In this document: piece after piece, positions 5,919-64,000 of the stretch | Layout of the letters: the number at the start of each line of letters is the position of its first letter | Position numbering within the stretch: position 1 is the stretch's first letter | Notes under the pieces: model-generated | What the model was told of the DNA's origin: nothing | The model's database searches: none | Seen by the model: only the letters and a program-made list of their open reading frames with translations | Program-made: the position numbers and the translations under genes | Assembly (NCBI GenBank): GCA_008330645.1 | Contig: VLTN01000005.1 | Span: 124,001 to 188,000, forward strand | Origin: Cafeteria roenbergensis | Lineage: Eukaryota; Sar; Bigyra; Bicosoecida; Cafeteriaceae | DNA: 64,000 nt | Reading direction: 5' to 3'

Positions 5919-8900
5919 ATGGCGTTCATTAAGCTGCTTTCCGTGCAAGGCATCCGGGCGTTTGACCCGCTGGAGGAGGCCGTGAGTGCCAGCAGGGAAG
6001 CTGCGCTGCGTGTGGTGTGCGTATTCGCACTGGCAGCGTGTGTGTGTGTTTTTTTTGGGGGGGGGTGCCCACGGGAGGGAGCTCGTGGGTCTGCGGCAAC
6101 TTTGCCCGTGCCGTCCCATGTGCCGCCGCGCAGCTCATCAAATTCGACAAGCCCCTCACCGTGATCGTTGGCGAGAATGGCTGCGGCAAGACGGTAAGCA
6201 GCTGCCTCTATTCGCCCGTCACGGTCGTGTGAGCGCTGTGCGGCGCGCAGCGTCTTGGTCAGCTCGACGCATCCGGGCCTCGTCTGCCGCTTCGCCGCAG
6301 ACCATTATCGAGTGCCTCAAGTACATCACGACAGGGCAGGCGCCGCCCAACACCAGCCGAGGCCGGGAGTTTGTGCACGACCCCTCGGTGAGGCGTGTAG
6401 GCGCGCGGAGGCACTCGCCCACCAGCTTTTGCAGGCGTGCCCGTGCAGCGCCACTGCCCCGCCGAGCCCGCCAGCCCGAGGACTGCTCCGCTGCCGCTGC
6501 CCCAACACCGCGCTCGTCCCTGGTCTCGCAGATCTTGGCCCTGAGCGACGTGAAGGCGCAGATCAAGCTGCGCTTCTGCGACGAGGCGGGCCGCAACCAC
6601 GTGGCGATTCGAAGCTTCCAGCTGAGCGCAGGGTCCGGCCGCAGCCGCAAAGCCACCCTCAAGACGCTGGACGGCGTGCTGGTGCGCTCGGAGCGCGCGG
6701 CAGACGGCACGATGGAAAAGGTCACCACCCAGATGCGCGCCTCCGCCCTGGACGAGGTGCTGCCGCAGCTGCTCGGGCTGCCCCGGCCCATCCTCGAGCA
6801 TGTGGTGTTCTGCCACCAGGAGGACTCCACGTGGCCGCTGCAGGAGGGCGCGGCCCTGAAGCAGCGCTTCGACGACATCTTCGCCACGACCAGGTACAGC
6901 AAAGCCATGGAGGAGGTGAAGAAGCGGAGGAAGGCCCTGCACGACGACGCCGTGACGTCGCAGGGGGACCTGCAGCGGCTCAGGACGCTCGCCGACGAGG
7001 CCAGGAGGCTCGGGCGCGAGAACGCGGCCGCGGACGCGCAGATCGCGCGGATCGAGGGGCGCCGGTCCGCGGCTACCGCGCGCGTGGAGGCCTGCGACGC
7101 CCGCTTGCAGCAGCTGCAGGGGGCGGTGGCGGAAGAGGCGGCGGCTCGCGAGGAGAAGGCTCGGCTGAAGCAGCGGGCCGCTGACTGCGAGGCCGAGGCG
7201 GGCCGTCTGCGAGCGCAGCTCGTCGAGGACTACGCGAGCGATCCCGACGCTGCTGCCATGGCCGACGGAGCCACGGTCCAGGCGGCGCTAGACGCTGCCC
7301 AGCGGCAGCTGGACGATGCCCGCGCCTCGGCCGCCGACATGGAGGAGCTGCGCGACGCCCTGCAAGATGACCTGCGCGCGGGCGACGCCTCGGTCGCGGC
7401 GGAGCGAGAGCGGCGGGCCAGGCTTCAGGGGCGCGTGATGGCCGTGCTGGAGGCCGCTTCCGAGCATGCCGCCGCCGTTCGCGCCTTCTGCACCGAGCAC
7501 GGCGTCGCCCCGCCCGAGCTGCCCGCGGTGGACTCGGAGCCCCCGCTGCGCAGCGGCGACACGGCGGCCTCGCACGCGTCCAGCGCCCAAGCTGCGCCCG
7601 CCTCCTCCGCGTCGGCCGGGGGTCGCGGCGTGTCAGCCAGCAGGGGCGCGTCGGCTGGCCCGGGGGGGCCTTCGTCCCGCGCGCTGCTGGAGCGAGCGCG
7701 TCGGTTTCACGCCGGTTCCGCGGCTCGGGAGGCCGCAATCGCGGCGTTCGCGCGAGCCGTCTCCTCGCGCGTCGCGGGCGCCGAGGAGGCGGCTCTGCAG
7801 CTGCGCAAGCGCCTGGAGGGCGAGGAGGCGGAGCTGCAGCGGCACGCGGACGACGCCCACGCCCGGAGCGCGAGACGCGAGGCGGCCGCCAGGTCGGCCG
7901 CGGCCTCGAGGCGGGCAGCGGAGGACGAGGCGGGCGAGGCAAGGGCGGCGCTGGCAGAGCTGGGGCTCGACGCCAAGGCGGCGGCCGACCGCGCGCTGGC
8001 CGAGCAGCGCGCCAAGGTGAGCCACCTCGTCCGCCGCACCGAGCGGGAAGCTGGGGCCGCGCGCGGGGGCGGGGCGGAGGCGTCGGCCAGGCAGGCGCTT
8101 GCGGCGCTCGACGCCACGGTGAGCAGGCTCAGGCGCTGGCTCAAGGCGGCGAGGGCGCGGGTGGAGGCGGCGCGGGGCGAGCAGCAGCGCGTGGCCCAGG
8201 CGCAGGCGGCGCGGGCGCGGGCGGAGGCGGCGCGGCGCGAGGCCCGCGGCGGGGTGGCGTCTCTCCGGAAGCGGGCGGAGGCGCTCCCAGGCGACTGCGC
8301 GGACGACGTCATTGCGGGAGCGGCGCTGGACGACCCGGCCGGCGCCGCTGCGGCAGTGGCGGAAGCGGTGGAGCGCACCCGTACGGCGTCGGCCCGGCTG
8401 GAGGCGGAGGCGGAGCGGGCGAGGGGGCGGGCCGAGGAGGCGCGGGCCAGAGCGGACGGGCTGCGGCACAGCTGCTCGGCGCTGGAGGCGTCCATGGCAG
8501 AGGCAAAGGCGGTGCTGTCGGAGGGCGGCGGAGGCGGGCCAGGCGCCCTGAGCGCGCACGGCGAGGCTGCGGCCCGCGGCGGGGACGCTGACGACGAGGG
8601 TTCGCAGTGGGACGCCGCGTCTGGGCGGCCGGCGCCCGTTGAGGACCTCGAGGAGATGCTGGAGGCAGCGCGGAACGCGTCGCGCCGCGCGGCCGCGGAC
8701 GGGGACCGCGCCGGCGCCGCGAAGGAGACGCTCTCCGAGCTGGAGGAGCTGGCGGTTCGCAAGTGCGCCTGCCCCCTGTGCGGCCAGGGCGTGGACGCAG
8801 CGGACGCGGACGCGATGGCGCTGCTGCGCCGCACCGTGAGGCAGACGATGCGGAAGCTGGCCGGGCGCTTCGGGGGCGCGTCCGAGGACGAGTGCGACGC

Positions 8901-32212: not shown

Positions 32213-32974
32213 TCAGCTGCGGCGGGATCCAGATGCCGCGACTCGAGCTCTTGCCTCCTGAGCCCACGCCACCACGTAAGCGGGATCCAGCGCGGCCGCG
32301 TCCACGATGGCTCGCTCGTCCCACTTGCCACTGACGTGCCAGCTGGCGGACACGCCGGTCGCAGTCAGTGGGGCATCCCTGGTGGGGAGACGCGGCCAAG
32401 GAGTCGACGAGCTCAGCGGAAGTGCCAGCGCGAGGCGCTGCCGCGACGGCGCCGTGCGCCGGCCGGCGGCCGCACCGTCAGCCGTGTCGCAACTGCGGCT
32501 GCTCCGAACCCCGCCCTGGCGCCGTCGCCTAGACTGGGCACCCTCTGTAGCGCCAGAAGGGCATTTGCGCGGCCCAAGCTGCTGCATCGAGGCGGACTCG
32601 AGCTCCAGCTGGCGCCGGCGCAGCTCGGCCAGCTCCGCGTTGACGCGCTGCATCTCGGCCACGTCGTCTGGGACCGGCTGGGCCGGCCTGGCAGACTTCC
32701 GCACCAGCATGACGGCACTTTCGCGAACCCTACGCATCGACCCGGGGTGAGGCGGCCTTGGCGGCGGCTGGCTGGGCCGGGGCCGCGGAGTCGCGCGAGC
32801 CACCACTCGGTCGCGGGACGCGCTTGGAGCCAAGTAGACCTGCATGGCGTCCAGCGCGGAACCGGGCAAGCCGCGGGTGCGATGGGAAGCGCAACGCTTG
32901 CGTGCGGCTGGCTCTTCCCGGGCGGAGGCGCGCGCGGCGCTCACCTTGAGGGATGTGTCCATGCCGCTCGACAT
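32213..32974 (-). CDS. Hypothetical basic protein
   Basis: Two exons keep phase: 32945-32974 (MSSGMDTSLK) and 32213-32839, giving 218 residues. The intron has a GTGAGC donor and an ATGCAG acceptor. The protein starts with a Pro/Arg-rich basic stretch. A short helical segment rich in Glu, Leu and Arg follows (VAEMQRVNAELAELRRRQLE), likely a coiled coil. Then comes an Arg/Ser-rich disordered region and a more folded-looking C-terminus (VSASWHVSGKWDERAIVDAA). No known domain is recognised. The small size and weak signal leave a real chance that the model is wrong, but the in-phase splice and the coiled-coil segment favour a gene. Confidence 0.45.
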   Translation of the reverse strand: MSSGMDTSLKVSAARASAREEPAARKRCASHRTRGLPGSALDAMQVYLAPSASRDRVVARATPRPRPSQPPPRPPHPGSMRRVRESAVMLVRKSARPAQPVPDDVAEMQRVNAELAELRRRQLELESASMQQLGPRKCPSGATEGAQSRRRRQGGVRSSRSCDTADGAAAGRRTAPSRQRLALALPLSSSTPWPRLPTRDAPLTATGVSASWHVSGKWDERAIVDAAALDPAYVVAWAQEARARVAASGSRRS

Positions 32975-49311: not shown

Positions 49312-52300
49312 CTAGCGACGTTTGTGCGACGATCCGGGAAGGGCGCGCGTCGACGATATGTCTTGCGAGGGAAGAGGAGCTCGGGCACCTCGCTGGGCGA
49401 CGGGCGCCTGCGGGGCCCACTCACCATCGCTCTCTGAATCGTCGCTGCCCTCGGCGTCCGAGCTGTCGCTCGCCGTGCCGGCCCCCCCCACTGCAGCGAG
49501 GGCCCCCGCCACGCTAGCAGCCTCCGCAGTCCCAGTACGGGAGTGGCCTCTGCTCGCCACTGGGCCGGACGCTGCGCGCAGGTGAGCAGCCGCCGCCCCC
49601 ACGGGGCGCGGCGCGTCGTCCTCGTCCTCGTCCTCGTCGCTGTCAGTCCGCACGTCCCCTGCGTCGCTAGCGTCCTCCGCCCCGGAGCTCGACTCCCCGG
49701 CTTCCTGGATGGCCTTGATGGCCGCGCCGTGCCTGCCAGCCACCGCGCCGGGGGCCCTGCCGCTTCTGGCCACCGAGGACCGAGCGATGCTGGTCGCGTC
49801 GGAATCGCCGTCGTCGTAGACGTCCCCAGAGCCAGCCCCGCTTTCGGAGTCGCTGTCCCCCATCACCATCATGCCGCCCCTGGCCCCGGGCGCGACGGCC
49901 AAGCTGAGCCTGGCAGCCGCGTACCCGGCAGCGAGCTGGCCGGCGCCTGGGGCCGGCGGCGCCGGCGGCCTCGCCTGCCGCTGGGCCGGGGCGGTCGCCT
50001 GACTCGCGGGGGCCGTTCCCGCACGTGCATCTGCCGCGACGGGCCGCGGGGGGGGCGCAACGGGGCTGCGCCGGGCAGGTGGGGGGGGGCTGGAGCGCTT
50101 CGGGGCGAACGGGTTTCCCGGCGCTGGCGCCGCCGGCGGAGGAGCTTGCTGGGCCGGGGTTGCAAAGGGATTGCCCGGACGCGAAGTGGGGGCGGGTGGC
50201 ACGACAGCAGCGGCGCTCGCAAACGGATTGCCGGGAGCTGCCACTGCCGGCGCGGCACCGCCGCCTTGCTCGGGCAGCTCGGCCTCGTGCGGCGGCCCAG
50301 AGCCGACCGGGCGAGGATCTGCCCGCTCTGCCGGGACAGCGGCGCCAAGGACGGGGGTTGGGTCCTGCACGGCGCCGCTGAAGGGGTTTCCAGGCTGCTG
50401 GTGCTGCGGCTGCGCTGCGAAGGGGTTTCCGGGAACAGGGTGCGCGCCCGGACGCCGCGGGGCGTCGCTATCATCCGAGTCGGACTCGTCGGCGCTGCCT
50501 GGGCGGGCCTGCGATTCGGCCTCGGCCCCAGCCCGCTGGGATGGCCATGTCTCTGCCGGCGCGCGCGGGCTGTCCTCGGGGTTCGAGGCAGACGAGGGCG
50601 ACTGGCCACGCGCGTCCCTGCCTTCCGCGTGTTGGCCTGCCCTGCTGCGCGCGGCGGAGTCAGAGGCTGAGCGCTCTGAGGAGGCGACGGACCGCGAAGA
50701 CTGCGCGACGTCTGCGCGCCGCTCCGCGGCCTGCCAGGACGGGAGGGCATCGCTTGGGTGGCCACGGCTTGCTCCAGGAGCAGCGGCCGGCTCCGCGGCA
50801 GTTGGCCGGACCGGGCTTTCGTCGTCGTCGCTGCTCCCGTCGGGAGTCGAGTCTGAAGCTGTGTCGCCGTCCGTGTGCCTCGCTGCGACAGGGTCTGGCT
50901 GTTGCTCCAACGCCGGCAGCACGGCGCCGGCCAGCCGCTCCGGCAGGGCCGCACGGCGGCCGTCGCTCCGAGCATCGGCGCCAGCAGCGACCTCTCCGAC
51001 GTCCCCCCATTCCCCGCCGGCTTCCCCCGGCGCAGGGTGTGGCGCGCTGCCGGCCTGCCGCGGCACGGATGCCACACCGCGAGCCTCAAGCGTTGCGCCG
51101 CTGCTCCGGAACCCAGGCGACGCCGCAGCAGCGCCCGCCGCCGCCGCCCCCGTTACTCGATCCGGCGACACCGTTGCGGCAGCTCCGGCGCCAGGGGTGC
51201 CTCGGCCCCAAGCGTACGCCTCGCGCTCCGCTGCCCGCTTCGAGCGTGCCTTGCGCAGCTTGCGCAGCGCTGCCGCGAACAGCTCCGCCGCGCACGCGAC
51301 GCGCGCGGTCTTTCTTGCGCCCTCCAGGAGCTCGGAACAGGCGCGCCGCACAGCCTCGTCGGAAGGCTCCACGCCCGGGGCGAGGCTGCTGCTGGCCGCC
51401 TGGCGCAGCCGGGAGCCCGCCGCCTCCAGCTTAACCACGACCCTAGACGTCTCTGCCGAGCTGACGCCCTGCTCCCGAAGCAGCAGCGCCCTGAGGGCGA
51501 AGACGGCCGTGACTGCGTCGGCGCGCGAGCGGAACTCGAAGTCAAACGAGCGGCTTCCCGCCCACACGCTGGCACACCGGGACCAGTCCCTGGGAGGGGC
51601 GGGGGAATGCCGAAACCCTGCCCCGCTGTCCGCGCCCAGCGAAACGCCGCGCACGTCGGCGAGCCACAGGCCGTGCGCGACAGCCCCGGCGACCGCGGGC
51701 CCCCTCGACTTTGGGGCCGACCCGCTGGCATCCCCGCCCAGGGCGGGGCAGCCGCCCGCGGGTCCCTCGTACCAGACCAGGCGCCACTGCGGCCGCCGGT
51801 CCTCGCCGGCCAAGTCTCGCACGCCGCCGCCCGAGGGCGCTCCGGGGTTGGAAGCCCCTGCCAGGGAGAGCGACCCAGCCGCTGACGCGCTGCGGCGCTG
51901 CGACGAAGCGGCTTGGATGACAGCCGCGGCCGGGAAGTCGCCCACCGGGGCCTGGAGCAGCGGGTCCAGCCTCCCCCGCGCCTGCGCAGGCACGAGCCGG
52001 AGGACCCTGTCGGTGGCCACGCGCAGCGTGCGCGCGTTGTGCTTGCTCACAGCCATGCCCCCGGCCAGCGCAGCCACGGCCGCGGCCGCCTCCCCCACGC
52101 GCCGTCCGAGTGCAGCCGACACGCGCAGGGACGTGCGCAGCGAGGACACGACGGCGTCCCGTCGCCTGATGGATGCGGCTGCCCGCTGAGCTGCCGCCGC
52201 GAGGGCCTCGTCACCGAGCGCTGCATCGGCACGGGCAGCTTCCGCCTGCTCTGCGCAGGCGGCCGCCTGGGCCCTGAAGGCCTCTGCCCTGGCCATCTCC

Positions 52301-55300
52301 TTCGCCACGCTGCGCCGGGCCAGGGCCGCCTCCTCCTCCGCCTCCTCCGCGGCGGCCCGCACAGCAGCCAGCCGCCGGTCCGCCGTCCGCGCTCGTTCCT
52401 CGGCAAGCACCCGCCCGTCTTCGGCAGCCTCGGCAGCCTCCGCAGCGGCCTTGGCCCTCGTCTCCGCCGCAGCGGCCTCCGCCTCCGCGGCCTGCTTCGC
52501 CACTTCGGCCGCCGCCCGCGCGGCCTCAGCAGCCTCTGCTCTGGCCTTCGCCTCAGCCTGCCCGTCGGCCGACCGCTGCGCCGCCGCCTCCGCGGCCAGC
52601 TTGGCCTGCCGCGCTCGCTCCGCCTCCTCCAAGGCAGCCGAGGCTGCCTCGCTCTCCTCCTCGACCCGGCCCATCAGCTCCTCCATTGAGGACGAGGCCT
52701 CCAGAATGGCCGCCTCCGCCTCCTTCTCCACCCGCGCCCGCGTGGCCACCTCGGCCTGCAGCTGCGCCCGCAGCTGCGCAAGCTCGGCGCGCAGCCCCGA
52801 GGCTGCGGCCTCCATCGCCTGAGCGGCCTCGGCTGCCTCCCGCTTGGCCGCGCTCTCCCGCTCGCCGGCGAGCAGCTGCGACGCCTCGAGGTCGTCTTTG
52901 GCGTGTTCCAGCGCCGCCACTGCGCGGTCGCGCTCCTCCTCCGCCAGAGCGGTCGCGCGCTTGGCCTCTGCCACCGCCAGCCGCAGCTCCGCCTCCTGCC
53001 TGGCTGCCTCTGCCATGTCCTCAGTGGCCTGCTTTCCCCGGCTCCGCAGCTGCGCCTCCAGCTCCGCCGCCTTGGCGCGAGCCGTGAGGAGCTCCTGGGC
53101 CTGAGCCGAGCTCTCATCGGAGGCAGCCTCTGACGCGCGCTTCAGCTCCTGCAGTTGGTGCTCCGCCGACGCCACGTCGGCTTGCAGCTGCGCCTCTGCC
53201 GCCTCGGCCTGCAGCCTGGCCGCCTCCGCAGCCGCCCCGGCCTTCTCGAGCTCGGCCTCCAGCTCGCCCACGCGCTTCGACAGACGCGCCTCTTCCTCCC
53301 CCGCGTCGTCCCGGGCAAGCTGAAGGTCTCCCGCCAGGCGGGCGGTTTCAGCCGAGAGGGCCGCCTTGCTGGCCTTGAGGTGGCCGGCCTCCTGCTCCAG
53401 CTCCGCCATCCGGGCCGCGGCCTCCGCAAGCGAGGCTCGCAGCTCAGCCGTCTCGGCGTCAGCGGCTGCAAGGGCGTCTGCGTGTGTCTTGGCCGCCTCG
53501 TCGCTCGCCGCCCGCAGCTCCGCGATGGTGGCCTCCAGCGCAGCCGCCCCCGACGTCCCCGCTGCGGCCGCAGCTCGCGCTTCCTCCGCCTCGGCCTTGG
53601 CGGCCCTTGCCTCCCATTCCGCAGAGTCGCGAGCGCGCTGCGCCTCCGTGGCCGCCTCGCTGGCGGCGTCGCGCTCCGTCTCCGCCTCTGCCGCAGCAGC
53701 TGCGGCGGCAGCCTCCGCCGCCTTTGACGCGGCTGCAGCCGCAACCGCCGTCTGCCGCTCCGCCTCCGCCGCCTCCGCCTTGGCCTGCGCCTCGTCGCGC
53801 CCCGCCTCCGCCGCCTCCGCCTTGGCCTGCGCCTCGTCGCGCTCCGCCTCCGCCTCCTCGATCGCCGTGGCGCTCGCCTCCTCCATGGCGCGCACCGCAG
53901 CCTCGGCCTCTGTCGCCCGCTTGGCTGCGGCTGCCGCCTGCTCTTCGGAGGCCACGAGCTTCTTCTCCAGGCGCCGGATCTGGCCCCGCAGCTCGAGGTC
54001 CGACCCTTCGCGCAGCCGAACGGCGTCCCTGAGCTGCTTGCGGAGCTGCTCCTGCTCTGCCAGCGCCTCCTCCAAACGCTTGGCTGTGCCCTCCGAGGCC
54101 TCCGTCGTGGACCCCAGGCGGGCGGTGAGCGTTGCTACCTCGTCGCTCAGTTCTTCGGCCCTTGCCCCAGCGTCCTGGGCCTGCTGGGCAGCGGCGCGCG
54201 CCTTGCCCTCTGCCTCCACGCGCGCCTTGGCCTCCGCCGCCCGCCCAGCCTCTGCAGCCGCGGCTTGGGCCTTGGCCTCCGCCGCGGCTTCCGCCTCTCG
54301 CGCCGCCTTGGCCTCCGCCCGCTCCTGCCTCGCCTTCGCAGTCGCCGAGTCCGCCTCTGCCGCGTCTGCGGCCTCCCTCGCCTCGGCGGCCTGCTTCCTC
54401 GCGGCATCGGCCTCCGCTCTGGCACTCTCGGCAGCAGACCGTTCCCTTGCCGCCTCTGCCTGCCGCATGCTTGCCTCTGCCTGCGCCGTGGCGGCGGCCT
54501 CCCTCGCTCTGTCCGACTCCGCGGCCGCCCGGCGGGACCTCCTCGCCTCCACGTCGCGCACCGCGCGCCACACCTGCCGGCCCGCGGCCACTGCCCTCTG
54601 CCGCGCCTTGGCACACGCCTCGGCCTCCCTCAGCAGCATCGGCACCCCCTCTTGCAGCAGCGTCTGCCCCGCTGCCGGCCCCTTGGCCAGCCTTCCGTAG
54701 TCCGTCGTCATCCCGTGCCACGCCTCAACCAGCCCGCGGACGCCAGCCTCCTCGCCGTCCGCGCCGTCCCCGAACACGGCGTCGTCGGCCTCTTCCAGCA
54801 CCTCCGTCGCGGCAGTGGTGGCGGCATGCACCGAGTCTTCGGCGCAGGCCTGGGCTGCGGCAGCGGCCTCCCCCCTCGCCATCACGTCCGCCGCGGCGCT
54901 GCCCGCGGTGCGCTCCGCCGCCTCAGCGGCCCGCCTGGCTGCCTCGGACTTGCTACCGAGCCTGGCAGCCGCGAGCTCCCTCACGACCGCAGCGCACGCC
55001 TCAGCGGACCGTCTCGCGTTGGCCTTGGTCAAGTCGGCGTGCCGCGACGCGACGCGGTCGCGGAATCGTGCCAGGGCCGCGCCTGGCTCCCCGCCCCCGC
55101 CGCCGCCCCCGCCCCCGCCGCCGGCTCCTGCGGCTGCGCCCTTGGCCCCGGGAATGAGCTCCACGAACCGCCCCCTGCCCTCCTCCGCCGCGGCGCCCAC
55201 CGCGCTGTCAAGGGCCGCCTGGTCGATGGGCAGCTCAGCCGGGGCGGCGGGGCCCTTGAGCAGAGCGGCGTCGAACGCCGCCCACGCCTCCTCCTCTGCT

Positions 55301-56763
55301 CGCCTGCACTGCTCGGCCTCCGCCGCCTTCCACGCGTCCGAAATGACGGGCACGCCGCCCTCGTTGATGGCCTTGCAGTAGGCTCGCGCCAGCCGCACGA
55401 GCATCGGGCCCGTCACGGCCCGCGAGGCGTCTCCAACAGTCTTGGGGTTCGCGTGGTCGAGGAGGATGCGGCGCAGACGTGACACGCCCGCGAGGAACTC
55501 CGCGCGAAGCGGGGGTGCGGACCCGCCCCCGCTGGCGTCCCCCAGGCGTTGCAGCTCGTCCTCGCCCTCCACGGGCCTCACGAGGGCGGCACACCGCCTG
55601 TTCCTGAAGAAGGAGCGAACGGCGTTGCGCGTGCCGTTCCGGCGTAGCGTCTCCTGGTCAAAGCCGTCCTGGTCTCGGAGGCTGGCCTCCATGTACTCGT
55701 CCTCGCTCATCTGAAGCCCGTCCTCGTCGTACAGGCCCAGGGTGAAGTCTCGCAGCACCCACACAAACGACGGAAGGAACCTGCCGAGCTCGTCGGGAGA
55801 GTGGCCCTCTGCGCCGTCGGACCCCAGGCGGATGGAGCGGCTCAGGCCGGCGATGAACCCCAGGCCCTGAATCGCGGTTTCGTCGATTGTGGAGCCGCCG
55901 TTGTACACGAGGGTCGAGCAAAGCAGCACCGCCAAGGTGAAAATGCGGCTGTCGTACTGCTCGTCCTTGCTCGTGTCTCCCAGCCCCTCGGAGTCGAGCA
56001 TCACCACTGGCAGCGACCTTCCGTCCTCGGCCGTCCCGCGCAGGACCTCCCTGCTGAGCCAAATCCCCTGCGACGGCAAGAGCGGGAGAGAGGTACTCGC
56101 GGGAAGGCAGCGAGGGGTGGGTAGGTGCGAGAGGGGTTGTGCGGGGGGAGGATGGGGGCTCCCCGGCACCGGGCAGGGACAGGAACTGGCAACCAAGGCC
56201 GCAGCAAACAGCCCCACGCAGCACCTGCGCCTCACCTGGGTGTGCCCTTGAACGGTGTGCCCCACGGAAAACTCGCCCGGGCGCCCGGTGAGCTGTCCCA
56301 TCAGCAGGCTCTTGCCGCTGCGGTACCGGCCGGCAATGATCACGGTTGCTGCGTGACGGCGACAGACGGAGAGCGCGCCAAGCAAGAGGGGCTTTCGCGA
56401 GCCACTGCCGCTGGCCTACGCAGACGATCTCGCGAGGACGCGCGGCCGCGCTCGCCGGCACGACGAGCAGCGCGCACGCGCAGCCGGAACGCGACCGCTG
56501 TCGCCGGCTTGGCACCCACGCGGCAGGGAAACGCCGCCGCAGCTTCCCCCGCTGCGCCCCCAACCCCGCCCAGCCTGCGTGTCTGCGACCCTATCCTGCG
56601 CTCTTGCACCGCCTTGGAGCCGGCTGCGCGCCTCACCGAGCTGCTCGTCCATGCCCTCCAGGAACTCCGCTGCCTCGGGGCCAACGTCAAACCGCTCCGT
56701 GGCGGAGTCGTAGACGATGAATGGCACCGCCGGAGGGTGCCCGGCCTCCGCCGCGGCTGCCAT
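49312..56763 (-). CDS. Guanylate-binding-protein-like large GTPase with long coiled coil and NPF motifs
   Basis: Three exons keep phase: 56637-56763, 56236-56348 and 49312-56067, for 2,331 residues. The GBP/atlastin G domain is at the N-terminus: P-loop GRYRSGKS (about 49-56), switch region GHTVQGHTQGIWLSREV, DxxG in MLDSEGLGDT, and the GBP guanine motif in WVLRDFTLGL. Helical residues follow, then about 1,000 residues of Ala/Glu/Arg coiled coil with a 15-residue tandem duplication (coded around 53,750-53,850). A later segment (WRLVWYEG, SRSFDFEFRSRADAVTAVFA) may be a PH-like domain. The tail is disordered and contains repeated GNPF motifs (six NPF in all), ligands of EH-domain endocytic adaptors. 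GBP proteins act on membranes; a membrane-trafficking role here is inference. It is divergent from the C39-like gene by 175 bp. Confidence 0.8.
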
Positions 56764-56938: not shown

Positions 56939-58278
56939 ATGCGACTGGTTGCTGCGGCCCTTCTGTCTGCAGCACTCGCCTCCACTGCCCTGGCGCGCAG
57001 CCTGCCTCGGTTCCCGCTGTACAAGCAGTGAGCGAGGCGTCAAGCGTGGGCCGGAAATGCAACTCCGAGCGCACACCACGCCCGCGGCTTTGCGCGCGCC
57101 CCAGGGCGGGCGGCAACCAGAACCCGCGAGCGTCGCAGGGACCGGCCGTCGAACTAGCGAGTGGTGGCCCCGCTCCATGGCACTGTTGCCCCCTGCGCCC
57201 CTCGCTGCCTCCACCCGCAGGTGCGACTCGCGCTGGGGCTCCGCGTCAATGGGAGAGTCAGACGCCTTGCAGCACCGCACCCTGTGCAGCGACGGCAGCG
57301 CCGTGACAAGCGTCGCCATGGCCCTCGCCGGCCTGGGCTCGGTCATCGCGAACGCCGCAGCTCGCCCTGACAGCGTCAACTCCTGGCTCCAGTCCAGCGC
57401 CGCGTGCGTGGCGGACAACTGCAACGACCTCGAGTTGAGCCCAGCGAGCCTCGTGCCTGGGTCCCCGCTGCAGTACGTCGGCAAGCGCTTCTCCCCTGAC
57501 CCCGAGGTTCTCGCCAGCGCGCTTGAAGACGGCAACGCCGTCCTCATCGGTGAGCCGATGCGCGGTTGGCGGGCGGGACCGCAAACTTTGCCGTGTTGAA
57601 GTTGAAGTGGCAGCTCGGCAGGCAAAACCCAACTTGCACAGCCAGCCTGAACTTGTTTTCCCTTGCTTGTTGATTGCCTTTCGTGCCACCGCGCCAACCC
57701 GCAGCGCGGGTGCGCGGCAGCGAGCGCCATGTGCTGCTCACCGGAGTTGCCAGCGAGCTCTCCGCCACCTTTGCCGTGCACGACCCCGCCAGCGACGCCG
57801 AGACGCTGGCGTTTGCCGACGTCGCGGATGTGGTCGAATTCCGAGTCGCTGCCCAGAACGCTCTGCTGCCTGTGAATCTGCGGGGCAGCGTTTTGCCCGT
57901 TCAAGAGCCTGCATGGAACCTCGAGGTCACAGGGGGCAAGTTCGTCATTCCGCACGCCATGCCCCTCTTCAAGCAGTGCGACAGCCGTTGGGGCTCCAAG
58001 ATGATCAGCACCAAGACCATTTGCCAGGTGGGCTGCTACATGACCTCCGCCGCAATGGCACTGGCCGGGCACCACATCAAGGTTTCGGGCAGCGGAGCTA
58101 CTCCGGCCAACCTTAATGCTTGGCTCCGGTCCCACAACGGATACAGCGGCAACCTTCTCATCAGCAGCGCGATTGTCAACATCGACCGCAGCCACATTTC
58201 GTGGCCCTCGGACGCTCACCACCCCAAGAATGACGTGTCACTCTCTGCCATCCAGAAGATGCTCAAGGACGGCAGGCC
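56939..58278 (+). pseudogene. Secreted protein with two C39-like peptidase domains, interrupted by insertion
   Basis: Exons 56939-57027, 57221-57549 and 57705 onward keep phase. Exon 1 gives a signal peptide (MRLVAAALLSAALASTALA). The protein contains two related papain-fold (peptidase C39-like) N-terminal halves. The first reads FPLYKQ/CDSRWGSASM, then LCSDGSAVTSVAMALAGLG. The second reads MPLFKQCDSRWGSKM, then ICQVGCYMTSAAMALAG. In the second copy the Cys of VGC is the expected nucleophile; in the first it is Ser (DGS), so that copy looks inactive. The host frame breaks at KMLKDGRP near 58,279, before the expected His/Asp part, and continues only 17 residues into the palindrome to a stop at 58331-58333. 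The missing 3' part may lie beyond the inserted element. An intact allele could exist elsewhere. Confidence 0.78.
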
Positions 58279-58374
58279 CTGTTGTAGTTTAATATATTAC
58301 TGGGCAATTGGTCCGCGGACTAACTATAGTTAGTCCGCGGACCAATTGCCCAGTAATATATTAAACTACAACAG
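58279..58374. repeat. Perfect 96-bp palindrome at the host/element junction
   Basis: Two 48-bp arms, 58279-58326 and 58327-58374, are exact reverse complements with no spacer. The centre is TAACTATAGTTA and the outer ends are CTGTTGTAGTTT and AAACTACAACAG. Symmetry stops exactly at the outermost pair (C against T at 58278/58375). It may represent an opened terminal hairpin or two fused terminal repeats of the element. Confidence 0.95.
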
Positions 58375-58399
58375 TAATCATCACTAATATATGCATATT

Positions 58400-58705
58400 C
58401 CCCAATAAGTCATCAGTCTAAGCACAATAACACGTTATACAAAGGAGTAAGTACCGATAAGTACCACGTAAGTACCGATAAGTACCCCAATAAGTCATCA
58501 GTCTAAGCACAATAACACGTTATACAAAGGAGTAAGTACCGATAAGTACCACGTAAGTACCGATAAGTACCCCAATAAGTCATCAGTCTAAGCACAATAA
58601 CACGTTATACAAAGGAGTAAGTACCGATAAGTACCACGTAAGTACCGATAAGTACCCCAATAAGTCATCAGTCTAAGCACAATAACACGTTGTACAAGGG
58701 TATAA
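58400..58705. repeat. 85-bp tandem repeat, three full copies and a diverged fourth
   Basis: Units start with CCCCAATAAGTCATCAGTC at 58400, 58485, 58570 and 58655, period 85 bp. The first three are identical as read; the fourth diverges after CACGTTGTACAAGG. Each unit contains smaller internal repeats of AGTACCGATAAGTACC. It is AT-rich and noncoding, just inside the terminal palindrome. Confidence 0.95.
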
Positions 58706-58776
58706 TATACCCCGGTACCACCAAAAATAATCCCCGGAAACGTCAACGGGTATCACGGGAAGGCTATGGCGCCATG

Positions 58777-58831
58777 GTGTCACACGTTCCGTATATCCCC
58801 CCTATAGAGTGAACTACGGAACGTGTGACAC
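58777..58831. repeat. Hairpin 1 (17-bp arms)
   Basis: Arms GTGTCACACGTTCCGTA and TACGGAACGTGTGACAC are exact reverse complements, separated by a C-rich loop ending in AGAGTGAAC. The loop closely matches those of the two hairpins downstream. Confidence 0.9.
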
Positions 58832-58861
58832 TTCCAGACACCCAGGCGCCGAAAATAGCCC

Positions 58862-58891
58862 GTGGGGATTTCAGCATGCTGAAACCCCCAC
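58862..58891. repeat. Short near-perfect palindrome
   Basis: GTGGGG and CCCCAC flank the 16-bp perfect palindrome TTTCAGCATGCTGAAA, with one A/C mismatch per arm. It is followed by a short run of repeated CCGAAAAT(A/G)G units to about 58937. Confidence 0.8.
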
Positions 58892-58943
58892 ATGCAAAAA
58901 ATAGCCGAAAATGGCCGAAAATAGCCGAAAATGGCCCGCCGCC

Positions 58944-59003
58944 GAAGTGGCCACGTTCCGTATCTTCCCCCCTAAAGAGTGAACTACGGAACGTGGCCAC
59001 TTC
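58944..59003. repeat. Hairpin 2 (19-bp arms)
   Basis: Arms GAAGTGGCCACGTTCCGTA and its exact reverse complement TACGGAACGTGGCCACTTC flank a 22-nt loop with CCCCCC and AGAGTGAAC. It is repeated 135 bp downstream. Confidence 0.92.
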
Positions 59004-59078
59004 CAGACGCCCCTTCTCTCCTCGTGGCCACGGATTAACTGCGCTCCACCTGAAAAACAGCCAACGTCTTGCCCCACC

Positions 59079-59138
59079 GAAGTGGCCACGTTCCGTATCT
59101 TCCCCCCTAAAGAGTGAACTACGGAACGTGGCCACTTC
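59079..59138. repeat. Hairpin 3 (19-bp arms), copy of hairpin 2
   Basis: Same arms and loop as hairpin 2, followed by the same CCAGACGCC flank. The sequence between hairpins 2 and 3 is not repeated. It lies about 150 bp beyond the 3' end of the nearest S74 gene. Confidence 0.92.
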
Positions 59139-59288
59139 CAGACGCCGAAATACTGGTGCACGGGATGGCCTAAAAAAAGACCCCCGAAGAGGTCGATATT
59201 TTGCCCGCCGACATACTGGCGGAAATGACGGAATTGTTATGATTGCACCGTTTCTGGGTGTGTGTTTTAACAAAAATGATACGAATTC

Positions 59289-61952
59289 TTATGATTCTGG
59301 TGTTTTCTCAACGCAAGCTCGCATATTGGTCGCGTTCTTTTCCAGTTCCAACAATTTGGCTTTGAGGGACGCCACTTGACTAGATAGTTCCTGGATGGCC
59401 TTAATCATTGGGCCAATCAGTTCCTCGTAGCGCAGGAAGTAGTTGTAGTCCTCAGTCTCAATCAGGGGTGGTTTCGTTTTGTTGTCGTCCTTAGGCTTGA
59501 CCCAATCAGGGTCTGGGATCATCTTCTTTGCCTTAACCACGATGGCATTCCCCTTGCCATCTGTGTCACCCATACTTTTGTGCAATGCCTCCACCTCTTG
59601 GCTAATGAGTCCACAATGAACGCGACCACTTGTACCGTTCTTCATCTTGAACTCGACGGGGCGCAATCTGACAATGTAGTCGAGTCCCTTGGTAATATCT
59701 ACGATGTCGTCCTTCTTGGTCTTGTCTGAGGTGGTGATGACAGAACCTGTGGCATAGACATTACGCCATGCAAACGATGATGCCCCAAGGTCAAAATTAC
59801 CTGTAGTTGTTGGCCTGACATATCGAATCCCCGTCTCCGGTCTGTAGTCAATGAATAGGCTGTCGTTGAATTCCACAGAACCGTCTAAAGCATTCATCGC
59901 CATCCATGATCGCGAATACCCTGTGGCGCTACTTCCAAGATGAGTATCGATTGAAAACATGTCCGTTGACGAGCGTTGATCTACGACTTGACGCCACCGT
60001 GTTTTGGATTGGTTAATGACGCGCTCCCCTGCGTGGTGATACCCATTCCAGTTAATCGCACTCCATCCTGAGTTTGCACCATCAGTTGTACGCCCTGCTT
60101 CGATAAATATTTGACCAGATTCTGTTGACTCACATCGTGAATCGTGGATCTGTAAAGGATGCCCCATTGTTGACTGGTCGTATCGACCAAATGTCGCAGA
60201 ACCAGCAGTCAGTTTCTCACTGTGAATATTTGACCATCGGTGAGTCAAATCACCCAATGATGCTGATGATGTTTCGATTGGTCGAAGAGACCCGTTCCCA
60301 AGTTGCAAAACCTCTGAAAACGTTGCTGTCCCGGTACTACTGTCAAATTGCATCCACGAATCAACCCCACTTCCCGTTGTTGACTCAATCGAAAATCGGT
60401 CAGTGTCTCCTCTCTGATCACAAAGAAGTCTCCAAACTAGTTTTCCCGGATTTGCACGGACATAACTCGACGCGAGATATCCGTTGAATGACAAAGACCC
60501 CCATCCACTTCGCCCACCAACACTGTCTGTGCCCGCCTCAACAAAGAGTTGGCCCCCAGCAGTCGCGTTTGGTGAACGGAAATGTGCACTTAAATGCGCG
60601 GTTGGGATTCCGCCACCATTACAGGCTAGTTGATTTACCTGGGCTTGTCCATTTCTCGCGTCGAGATTTCCATCGTGGACAAAGATGCTTCCGTAAATAT
60701 TTAGGTCTGCAGGGGTTACCGGTTGCCCGACAGTCATATTGCCTGTAAATGCTCCTGTACTTCCACTGACGTTTCCATCAACAGCGAGGTCACTGAGGAC
60801 TGCCCCGTCAATGTGAATGTCGCCGCGAATTCTAACGGATGATACGTCCACATCTCCTGTGCTCAAAATACCACCCGGTGTGGTCAGAAGCCCGCTGAAC
60901 GTGCCGGTTCCCGCGTTCAAGTTTCCCGACGATACCGTGAGACCATCCGACGCGGTGAACAGTCTCGAAGAGCGTACTGGTTGAATAAAACTCGTAAAGT
61001 ACCCGGGGTCGTCATAGATGCATGGATCTCTCATGTTGTCAAACTGAAACATCGTGTATTCGTTCTGATTATTCGAAGTACAAACAGCCTTTGCACCAAC
61101 GTTGAATCGAATTGGCTGGCCGATGCCACCTGTTGTCAGATTCCCGACCGTGATTCGGAAATCGGGGTAGTTGTCGCCCATGTACTCTGAGGTTCTGGAA
61201 CACATTGTAAGCATCGACCCAGTGTTCGTGTAGTCGTTTGACGAGTCTCCTCCGCAAATCTTCAGTTCACATGCCTGGCTACCATCAGGGTTCCCATTTC
61301 CAGCCCGCACAAGTTTCATGGAACCATACAGGACATGTTCTTCATTGTCGTCCTCTGGAGAACCCACAGCCAGATTGCCCGCTACATGTACATCACCTGA
61401 GAATTCCGCAGATAACGCACGCATAGTACCAGACGGCACTGTGAGGCCATTTGACGCAGTGAGATGCCCCCCGACGTCCATCGCGCCCTGGATGGATGCG
61501 TCTTGTGTCGTGAACCCACTGAGTGCCGAAACGAGTCCCTCGAATGTGGCAGACTTAGCGTCCAAGTGTCCCGCTACATCAGCGGTCGACGCCGTGAGTC
61601 CTCCGTTTGCAGAGAGAATCCCACTGACGGAGGCATTTGTTGTAACAAGTCCGCCAAATGTGGCAGATCCCGCACCCAGTGTCCCCGTCACCGAGACACT
61701 GGGTGCCACCAACTCTTCCTTCAGGACAAGACCGTTCGCCGTCAACACACCATCGCCTTCGAGTGTCCCAAGCGTCAGATTGCCATAAATCACAGCGTCC
61801 TCGTTCACACGAAGCGACTCTGATGCGATCCCACCTTGTGCCGTGAGAGATGGCCCACTATCTGCAGAACCCACGATAAGCCCATTGGGTAATTCTTCGC
61901 CATTAGGGGCTGTAATCACTTTGGTGATTGTTACAATTGCAGTTGCAGACAT
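59289..61952 (-). CDS. Fibre-like protein with C-terminal S74 intramolecular chaperone domain
   Basis: Intronless, 887 residues from the ATG at 61952 (MSATAIVTITKVI); the frame is open further upstream, but this Met starts the protein-like sequence. The body is built of short beta-type repeats of the pattern LGAGSATFGGLV, LDAKSATFEGLV, LNAGTGTFSGLL, as in trimeric tail fibres. Middle segments MLTMCSRTSEYMGD, FRFNVGAK-like FNVGAK and EYTMFQFDNM are shared with the neighbouring gene. The C-terminal 147 residues begin TSDKTKKDDI (Ser742 and Lys747 are the likely self-cleavage dyad), then LRPVEFKM and CGLISQEVE, and end in a coiled coil. S74 domains help fibres trimerise and then cut themselves off. 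It is probably a virion attachment or appendage protein; that role is inferred. Confidence 0.85.
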   Translation of the reverse strand: MSATAIVTITKVITAPNGEELPNGLIVGSADSGPSLTAQGGIASESLRVNEDAVIYGNLTLGTLEGDGVLTANGLVLKEELVAPSVSVTGTLGAGSATFGGLVTTNASVSGILSANGGLTASTADVAGHLDAKSATFEGLVSALSGFTTQDASIQGAMDVGGHLTASNGLTVPSGTMRALSAEFSGDVHVAGNLAVGSPEDDNEEHVLYGSMKLVRAGNGNPDGSQACELKICGGDSSNDYTNTGSMLTMCSRTSEYMGDNYPDFRITVGNLTTGGIGQPIRFNVGAKAVCTSNNQNEYTMFQFDNMRDPCIYDDPGYFTSFIQPVRSSRLFTASDGLTVSSGNLNAGTGTFSGLLTTPGGILSTGDVDVSSVRIRGDIHIDGAVLSDLAVDGNVSGSTGAFTGNMTVGQPVTPADLNIYGSIFVHDGNLDARNGQAQVNQLACNGGGIPTAHLSAHFRSPNATAGGQLFVEAGTDSVGGRSGWGSLSFNGYLASSYVRANPGKLVWRLLCDQRGDTDRFSIESTTGSGVDSWMQFDSSTGTATFSEVLQLGNGSLRPIETSSASLGDLTHRWSNIHSEKLTAGSATFGRYDQSTMGHPLQIHDSRCESTESGQIFIEAGRTTDGANSGWSAINWNGYHHAGERVINQSKTRWRQVVDQRSSTDMFSIDTHLGSSATGYSRSWMAMNALDGSVEFNDSLFIDYRPETGIRYVRPTTTGNFDLGASSFAWRNVYATGSVITTSDKTKKDDIVDITKGLDYIVRLRPVEFKMKNGTSGRVHCGLISQEVEALHKSMGDTDGKGNAIVVKAKKMIPDPDWVKPKDDNKTKPPLIETEDYNYFLRYEELIGPMIKAIQELSSQVASLKAKLLELEKNATNMRACVEKTPES

Positions 61953-61984
61953 GCTATTACAACCCGGTGTTAAAACCCATGACT

Positions 61985-64000
61985 TCATTTGCCAATGTTT
62001 GCTTCCAAAAACGCTACTCTTTCTAAAAGTTGTTGGCACGTCTTTACAATTGGGGCAATGAGTTCACTATATCTCAGGGAGTATTGGCATGTACCGTCTT
62101 CGCGTGTCTCGAAATCGACAATGCCGTTCCCCTTCCCGTCAATGTCTCCTAAATCTGCAAATGTTTTTTCAACTTCTTGTGCAATAAACCCATAGTGAAT
62201 GCGATTACTTGTTCCACTTTTGAGCCTGTATTGTGTTGGTCGGAGTCTTTCGATAAGATTGGTACCCATGCAAATGTCATGAATATCCTTCTTTAGGTTC
62301 AAATCAGAGCCCTCTGAAACATGCGTAAAATACCCAGTTCCGGAGCAACGCATATTGCCTCTAATGTCAAGGGGGTAACCAGGGTCACTCGTCCGAATTC
62401 CAAGTCTTCCATCGGATGAGGAGTCGGGATTTACAACAACACTTGTGGCCTCGGTATTCGAAGCACCACGAAAGGTTCCTGATGTTGCTGACACATCATG
62501 AAATGATCCCGTATTCGCATACACCGTATGTTCAAATGCACCCTCGCTTGCCCTCACACCAACCGAAAATAACCCTGTACCGGTCACACTTATACCGTTC
62601 GAGAACTCTGCTGTGTCGGCCTTAACACTGCCATTCACATGCAATGTGGCTTCTGGATTGTCCGTCTGTATTCCGACACGACCACCTTTAACACGCATGG
62701 TCTCTCTAAGACTGGTTCCGGGTGCATATATCCCATCTTGTGCTCTAAAAATTATATTCCCCTGCACGCCCGTATCCCCAGCGACCATTGCAATTTCACA
62801 TGTGCTCGGAAATGGTGTGGTCTCGGATGGGATCTCAACTCCAAAATCATATGCGTTAAATGCAATTCGCCTTTCATCCCTCCGCTCCTCACTTTGTTCA
62901 CGGGTGTTTAGTATCAAGTCTCCCTCCTGAATAATGACATTTCCACCAGATGTTTCTTTGTGTGTCGTTACACCATCCTCATTCAAAACATCGATTTCCT
63001 TACCAATGACAAGGTCACCTTCTGGAATTGTAAAATTGCCATGATGAGTTGTCGCCGTTGGACCTGCCTCCGTTCCAACCCGCACGCCGTCTCCAGATAC
63101 TACCATACACCCCGCAATGGACGCCGTATCAGATACTATCAGACTCTGTGTATCACAGGGTGACCCGGTGACAACAATGCCCTGAGACGCGATGAGCGAT
63201 TCGGTGAAACTCCCACTACCTGCCTTTAGAATGTCAGGTGAAATTGTTCCAACATCCAGCGTTCCCGTGACTATTGCCGATGAACATTTGATATCGTTGT
63301 TGAACAGTACATTTCCGTTGAACATTGTGAATGCATCGGTTATCTCAAGTCTATTTACACCAGGGGTGGCTGAAAAGACCGTGAGAGAATCGGTTGTCAT
63401 TGTACCAGCGCCCAAACCACCGCTAATTACTGCATTCGTCGCCCCCAAACTACCTGTTTGTAACAAACCATCGATTACTGCAGACCCCGCGTCTAATTGA
63501 CCCCCAACTTCTAGGCTCCCCGTTGTCAATTTATCACTGAATATTGCAGAGGTACCGTCGACTTTAAACACTTCTCCTGAATCTGAGACAACCGAGAGAC
63601 CACCAACAGTTACACTGTCGCCGAACATTGCAGAGGTGCCAAAGAGCCCTCCCCCAATAGTAACTGAATTGGTTGTAGTAAGAGGTTTTGTCATTGTAAC
63701 GGGGCGCAAGAACGATGTGTAATATCCCGGATCTTGGTCTGTGGAGGGGGTCTTGTCCTCGAGATGATCAAACTGAAACATTGTGTACTCGTTCTTACTC
63801 CCTGTTGTATCTTTGGCACCGACATTGAAACAGATAGGCTGTTGACCTTCCGGGTATGTCACATCGGGGAATGCAAATCGAGCATCTGGCAGTTTCCCCA
63901 TCACGGCGATTCGGAAATCTGTAAATCCATCTCCCATGTATTCAGTCGATCCAGTGCACATTGTGAGCATGCTTGCTGGTTGAAAAGAATCGCCATCGCC
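61985..64000 (-). CDS. Paralogous S74 fibre-like protein, 5' end outside window
   Basis: The frame is open from the right window edge to a TGA at 61985-61987, at least 671 residues, so the start lies outside. The residues before the Met at 63970 (DGDSFQPAS) already align with the paralogue, so that Met is not the start. Shared segments are MLTMCTGSTEYMGD, CFNVGAKD, EYTMFQFDHL and YTSFLRPV. Repeats of the type LDAGSAVIDGLL follow, then GRVGIQTDNPEATLHVNGSV, a typical fibre segment. The S74 domain has EGSDLNLKKDI with the Ser and Lys five residues apart, LRPTQYRLKSG and YGFIAQEVE, ending in a short coiled coil. Only 32 bp separate its stop from the start of the downstream paralogue, a virus-like spacing. 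Confidence 0.85.
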   Translation of the reverse strand, partial: GDGDSFQPASMLTMCTGSTEYMGDGFTDFRIAVMGKLPDARFAFPDVTYPEGQQPICFNVGAKDTTGSKNEYTMFQFDHLEDKTPSTDQDPGYYTSFLRPVTMTKPLTTTNSVTIGGGLFGTSAMFGDSVTVGGLSVVSDSGEVFKVDGTSAIFSDKLTTGSLEVGGQLDAGSAVIDGLLQTGSLGATNAVISGGLGAGTMTTDSLTVFSATPGVNRLEITDAFTMFNGNVLFNNDIKCSSAIVTGTLDVGTISPDILKAGSGSFTESLIASQGIVVTGSPCDTQSLIVSDTASIAGCMVVSGDGVRVGTEAGPTATTHHGNFTIPEGDLVIGKEIDVLNEDGVTTHKETSGGNVIIQEGDLILNTREQSEERRDERRIAFNAYDFGVEIPSETTPFPSTCEIAMVAGDTGVQGNIIFRAQDGIYAPGTSLRETMRVKGGRVGIQTDNPEATLHVNGSVKADTAEFSNGISVTGTGLFSVGVRASEGAFEHTVYANTGSFHDVSATSGTFRGASNTEATSVVVNPDSSSDGRLGIRTSDPGYPLDIRGNMRCSGTGYFTHVSEGSDLNLKKDIHDICMGTNLIERLRPTQYRLKSGTSNRIHYGFIAQEVEKTFADLGDIDGKGNGIVDFETREDGTCQYSLRYSELIAPIVKTCQQLLERVAFLEANIGK

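Follow-up and report, generated by a model that had tools for sequence, protein, structure and literature searches.

Perfect palindromes at the ends of a virophage-like element inserted in a Cafeteria exon

Introduction

What kind of DNA begins in the middle of a host exon with a perfect palindrome, and how would the ends of such an element be copied? The question is raised by a stretch of 64,000 nucleotides in the GenBank assembly GCA_008330645.1, filed under Cafeteria roenbergensis (contig VLTN01000005.1; C5:124001-188000) and here called the window. The insert is 15,606 bp long, starts at window position 58280, and occupies C5:182280-197885. Very probably it represents EMALE08 (BVI_005), from the BVI strain of Cafeteria burkhardae and one of the endogenous mavirus-like elements (EMALEs), and the element itself has very probably been published; its end palindromes are the part not found in print. 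These ends suggest a mode of end replication that is common to related elements and that was not found described. Positions without a prefix are those of the window, C numbers denote contigs, and L numbers denote loci fetched from them. The genome searched is composed of 36,303,456 bp in 167 contigs.

Insertion site

GC (guanine plus cytosine) content is 50% over the element and 71% in the host part of the window (1-58279). In 1-kb steps from 50 kb on, it falls from 0.67-0.76 to 0.46-0.52 at ~58 kb. The original prediction, made from the letters of the window, had placed a composition break inside a C39-like host gene, and this is borne out. It had also placed the start of a perfect palindrome at the same base. 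The palindrome is confirmed and the base is shifted by one: the element begins at 58280 rather than 58279, because the outermost C/G pair of the palindrome as first read (96 nt, 58279-58374) involves host DNA that matches by chance. The features at the junctions are as follows.

57674..58279, plus strand: left part of the host C39-like exon (PF13529, E 7.8e-4, below cut-off)
58275..58279, unstranded: target-site duplication GGCCC, read from the sequence, with its second copy at C5:197886-197890
58280..58373, unstranded: left terminal palindrome, TGTTGTAG...CTACAACA, 94 nt, 100% self-complementary
C5:197794-197885, unstranded: right terminal palindrome, 92 nt, perfect

The matching inverted end and the rest of the exon had been expected beyond 64,000, and both are present on the same contig. 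The right palindrome is followed by GGCCC, and the host frame resumes at C5:197891 (L010:2891). Joined without the element and one GGCCC, the host flanks form a single open frame with a stop at its end. The claim of a virus-like element within a host exon is thus upheld by both ends, the 5-bp target duplication, and the open frame of the empty site. The C39 assignment of the gene stands less firmly; the PF13529 match is present in the left exon part only, at 20.5 bits against a cut-off of 24. An allele without the insertion was also sought, and none is present in the assembly searched.

The junction between host and element is real. Misassembly with a free virus or a bacterial contig, which had been named as the contrary case, finds no support in the sequence. 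Insertion of a whole giant virus is ruled out, as the element is only 15.6 kb long and has two ends. As in other EMALEs, the insertion is of low to mid GC and lies between terminal inverted repeats and host DNA.

Palindromic ends

Each end of EMALE08 is perfectly symmetric, and the two ends are unlike one another. Of 47 alignment columns, left and right arms agree in just 38, and the longest blocks that match between the terminal regions of the two sides have 71-77% identity.

Across the genome, 32 ends of mid-GC EMALEs were compared, some of which were located through the palindrome pattern itself. A perfect palindrome at the junction, as would be expected of a hairpin telomere at a genome end, is found at 26 of them and measures 90-138 nt; five ends are imperfect or rearranged, and one is a truncated remnant. 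The unbiased set is made up of 27 ends retrieved with inner terminal-repeat DNA as query, together with C149 and C137, found through the tyrosine recombinase (YR), and C35, found through a second type of terminal repeat. The inner query excluded the palindrome, and 27 places match it from its first base (perfect at 21, imperfect or rearranged at 5, truncated at 1). Twenty of these were read outward; at 19 of them a palindrome of 130, 132, or 134 nt starts at the flank and has every base paired, and at the C34 end only ~20 bases of one arm remain. The 19 fall in four variants, in which the arms have changed jointly.

Among the other ends, those of C4 and C23:18.7k are perfect and that of C29:7.1k is nearly so. 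The centres are rearranged at C58:30.4k and C108, and the arms have diverged at C76. In the element at C58:11506-30457 (L074, L069), one end bears a nested palindrome of 134 nt, and the palindrome of the opposite end is contracted to 89 nt and centred on TCC. At C110:20730-20965 (L095), an extra half copy precedes the terminal palindrome and gives three arms, an outcome that fold-back over-replication might produce. The second type of terminal repeat occurs at four places. C137, C149, and C35 have perfect 90-mers (3/3 read); the fourth, C151, matches from query position 21 only and is outside the count.

The flanks of the palindromes differ between ends, with 30 distinct 14-mers among 31; the shared one belongs to the two C29 ends. 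At these ends (C29 ~7046-7076, L065, and 32899-32930, L073), host DNA has either been duplicated in inverted orientation or been misassembled across the terminal repeat. The palindrome pattern has seven forward matches in the genome and none when reversed.

At five low-GC ends (L041, L042, L044, L048, and L050, of unverified EMALE type), the longest perfect arm near the junction is 8-10 nt, with short imperfect inverted repeats recognised there by eye. These five were kept from six ends inspected among 12 profiled low-GC S74 loci; L043 was left out because its boundary holds a retrotransposon-like repeat also present at C29. All 10 contigs with a YR match bear a palindromic end, that of C34 being truncated.

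Terminal palindromes in EMALEs were not found reported in the literature searched, which lay outside figures, supplements, and subscription papers. The main text of the publication on mid-GC EMALEs (Hackl 2021, PMC8547959; figures and supplements outside this scope) has no 'palindrom', 'hairpin', or 'S74'. By word find, a 2024 PNAS paper (PMC10945749) has none of these terms nor 'EMALE08' in its searchable text, and 'palindrom' is likewise absent from that of PMC11172284, PMC11071308, and PMC12220804.

Insertion mode and the tyrosine recombinase

Target duplications of 5 bp and TG...CA termini are present at all three elements checked (C5, C1, and C58). Because of these two features, the insertion is classed as rve-type. 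EMALE target duplications are mostly 3-5 bp in the account of Hackl 2021 (PMC8547959). Genome-wide there are 31 matches to the rve domain, with C149 among them and none on C5.

The element encodes a second kind of recombinase, YR. Residues R148, K179, R238, H263, and Y272 are invariant in 7/7 sequences and presumably form the catalytic R...K...R-H-Y of a tyrosine recombinase. A Gln occupies the place, three before the second Arg, where a His is usual. The fold is that of Cre/Xer, and the first 37 VIA-align rows are titled recombinases, integrases, type I topoisomerases, or the regulators YopR/MrpR. Pfam gives no integrase match for YR. In comparison with the telomere resolvases TelN, TelK, and ResT, YR shares the superfamily fold only; no telomere resolvase is among the structural rows, which is not counted as evidence against such a role. 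Over 264 codons, a pair of YR genes differs at 156 third positions vs 62 first and 57 second positions. This codon pattern indicates that YR is under purifying selection. The gene is conserved even though rve-type insertion has no need of it.

Gene content and identity

Past the left palindrome, the original prediction had described repeats and tightly packed S74 genes, and these are present. The remaining features, from left to right, are listed below.

58400..58697, unstranded: 85-bp tandem repeats, 3.5 copies, within the terminal inverted repeat
58777-58831, 58944-59003, and 59079-59138, unstranded: three stem-loop repeats, with similar ones near the right end
59289..62039 (C5:183289-186039), minus strand: S74a fibre gene, 916 aa (amino acids) from GTG, first ATG at 61952
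61985..64000, on to C5:189860 (C5:185985-189860), minus strand: S74b fibre gene, with a C-terminal S74 domain
C5:190182-190796, plus strand: open reading frame (ORF) of 204 aa
C5:190859-191686, plus strand: YR
Between YR and helicase in the gene map: three ORFs of 121-145 aa
C5:193061-196069, plus strand: helicase, 1,002 aa, its helicase domain origin-binding-protein-like (Herpes_ori_bp, PF02399, E 2.7e-9)
After the helicase: right terminal repeat and the palindrome at C5:197794-197885

S74a is phage tail-fibre-like and has a C-terminal S74 chaperone domain. The domains of the two fibre genes (PF13884) score E 1.4e-9 and 1.3e-12. For the four small ORFs, no match in Pfam is better than E 0.02. 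The N-terminus of the helicase carries the aligned motifs FDID, KHSxH, and RxFRxxGQS, which are presumably primase-like; its structure model, at pLDDT 35, was left unused. YR and the helicase have homologues on other EMALE contigs, and over long matches the helicase is ~22-29% identical to those of the compared EMALE loci.

Capsid, packaging-ATPase, and integrase genes had been sought beyond 64,000. Pfam recognises no capsid, penton, ATPase, protease, or rve among the tested proteins of the element (10 protein pieces, ORFs <100 aa left out), and the same 10 pieces have no match to L061 and L063, which hold the capsid blocks of C149 and C1; YR and helicase are present. As a positive control, a C149 ORF was recognised as MCP_V20_C (E 1.5e-6), with minor capsid V18-19 sub-threshold at E 0.0018. 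Pfam did not name the ATPase and protease ORFs of C149 either; these names are assumed from gene order and known motifs. The C1 element is composed of palindrome, rve, capsid-type ORFs, S74, YR, helicase, and palindrome, where the capsid ORFs are again presumed from gene order and known motifs. In gene order, EMALE08 looks like this layout without the rve-to-ATPase block and with a second S74 gene.

The identification with EMALE08 follows from the agreement of contig number and gene content with the published BVI_005, which is described as a virophage that is truncated, of mid GC, and devoid of capsid genes (PMC8547959). Contigs 29 and 55 here hold a mid-GC and a low-GC element, respectively; in that publication BVI_029 is EMALE06 and BVI_055B is EMALE04. 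It reports YR for EMALE types 5-8 and a protein-primed polymerase in low-GC types that mid-GC types lack. Shared with mid-GC types 5-8 as described there are contig number, GC, YR, and the lack of capsid genes, along with terminal inverted repeats, short target duplications, and insertion in exons. As in type 8, EMALE protein homology and YR are found, and rve and morphogenesis genes are not. The element thus very probably belongs to the mid-GC virophages of the mavirus-like kind in Cafeteria burkhardae and has neither capsid genes nor rve.

The original prediction had seen in the S74 genes a hint that this may be an element of a different kind. That reason is rejected, although the departure from the usual gene core stands, as Hackl et al. 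had already stated for EMALE08 (PMC8547959). Across the genome S74 exceeds the cut-off at 33 places, including two within the element, and a stretch homologous to S74a is present in 18 of 19 other fetched S74 loci (not L047, on C6), low-GC and mid-GC alike. S74 is ubiquitous, according to a 2025 paper, among polinton-like viruses from most eukaryotic groups (PMC12220804), and with the homologues in other EMALEs this makes the genes ordinary. No relatives were found in IMG/VR with S74a, the YR alignment, the helicase, the palindrome-arm pattern, and the C149 MCP as queries, a search in which near records may be omitted.

Three further observations were made. At C5:189854-190248 (L009:2854-3248), between S74b and the ORF before YR, head-to-tail repeats of a CTGCAAAACTCGCACATGTCAAA-like unit were recognised through their repeating translations. 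S74 domains at C6:16516-16698 and C2:1336177-1336359 lie in frames of 5438 and 5014 aa, far exceeding the EMALE fibres. Adjoining the insertion is a large open frame on the minus strand (window 49312-56385). Its N-terminal stretch is GTPase-like, to the eye akin to a guanylate-binding protein or dynamin, and a long part resembles coiled coil.

Replication of the ends

The explanation favoured here, held tentatively and at a little under even confidence, is that EMALE08 is a mid-GC virophage with hairpin ends, an rve integrase acting in trans, YR as resolvase, and helper particles. The replicating form would be linear DNA with its ends folded into hairpins. Copying round the hairpin would give identical arms at each end and, after integration, a full palindrome. 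Molecules would turn back at the palindrome centre without host DNA and would not be blunt at TGTTATAG. Fold-back copying of this kind predicts perfect arms, joint arm change between elements, and the unlike ends of EMALE08. Since the arms of EMALE08 are identical within each end and differ between left and right, homogenisation appears to act within an end. Hairpin ends would replace the protein-primed polymerase of low-GC EMALEs, and the YR of mid-GC virophages may resolve the replicated ends. Because EMALE08 is without rve and its insertion is rve-type, an rve integrase from another EMALE would insert it in trans. Particles would be supplied by a helper EMALE or a giant virus and equipped with the retained S74 fibres. 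EMALE08 would be a non-autonomous satellite.

Other explanations share part of this evidence. Perfect palindromes could be produced by the assembly, either by fold-back of long reads or by joining of a free virus to host DNA. The C29 element has the same 31 host bases, inverted, on both sides, and may be such a misassembly. A fold-back would copy host DNA too, and the palindromes stop at end-specific flanks; C5 also shows both host flanks and a target duplication. An artefact is thus very improbable. Alternatively, YR could insert a circular form, with the palindromes serving as its attachment sites. Contigs with YR also carry palindromes, and for polinton-like viruses YR is held to integrate circular DNA (PMC12220804). 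The same source states that tyrosine recombinases produce no target duplication, unlike the duplications and TG...CA termini of the three elements, and a single cut in a circle of two such ends would not be expected to leave a full palindrome at both. Integration of a circle is accordingly held to be quite improbable.

The published reading, in which EMALE08 is merely truncated and decaying, would make the palindromes inherited repeats recognised by rve and would be silent on replication. EMALE08 is apparently single copy, has no recognised capsid or integrase genes, and is termed truncated by Hackl et al. (PMC8547959). Against decay speak the open frames of its main genes, the purifying selection seen in the YR pair, and the need for arms so perfect to be homogenised prior to integration. 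The helicase, just ~22-29% identical to those of the compared loci, shows that EMALE08 is not a recent deletion of these elements. Decay alone therefore appears rather unlikely. A further alternative is self-priming without closed hairpins, where the palindrome folds back to prime synthesis and is then nicked and unfolded, as in the rolling hairpin of parvoviruses, and YR has another job. It accounts for the identical arms, the lost protein-primed polymerase, the rearranged centres (C58, C108), and the third arm (C110). No nickase is recognised among the ORFs given to Pfam, and the sequence of the ends is the same under self-priming and closed hairpins. Self-priming is considered unlikely.

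Known systems

A close parallel to hairpin ends with a YR resolvase is a Phaeovirus in Ectocarpus (PMC13236599), an integrated virus of a stramenopile alga with a tyrosine recombinase. There, a telomere resolvase and a telRL-like palindromic site are proposed to yield closed hairpin ends. The Phaeovirus is a giant virus with an internal palindrome and YR excision at CC sites, whereas EMALE08 has terminal palindromes and an insertion that looks rve-type. Dishui Lake virophage 3, a freshwater metagenomic virophage likened here by its description in a review (PMC10301787), has palindromic repeats towards both genome ends, but at asymmetric positions. The polinton-like viruses of cryptophytes (PMC12220804) carry S74 fibre proteins, and their integrases are of the rve or the YR type; there YR is taken as an integrase, and the main text has no 'palindrom' or 'hairpin'. 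In the hairpin telomeres of phage N15 and Borrelia, palindromic junctions are resolved by a tyrosine-recombinase-like enzyme. These systems are bacterial, and the likeness of the EMALE08 YR is one of superfamily fold only.

Significance

Two open points are addressed by these ends, namely how the ends of linear virophage genomes are copied and why rve and YR coexist in some of them. The palindromes accompany YR and the loss of the protein-primed polymerase, which suggests a direct and testable answer. That mid-GC EMALEs swapped protein priming for hairpin telomeres and a resolvase of their own, with EMALE08 as their satellite, is a possible yet doubtful course of events. If true, this would be the first system of hairpin telomere and telomere resolvase in virophages. 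EMALE08 would keep a replication module and fibres and borrow integrase and capsid, an extra layer of parasitism upon host, giant virus, and virophage. The palindromic signature of the ends is usable to find complete elements, and EMALE08 would be a natural test for satellites of virophages.
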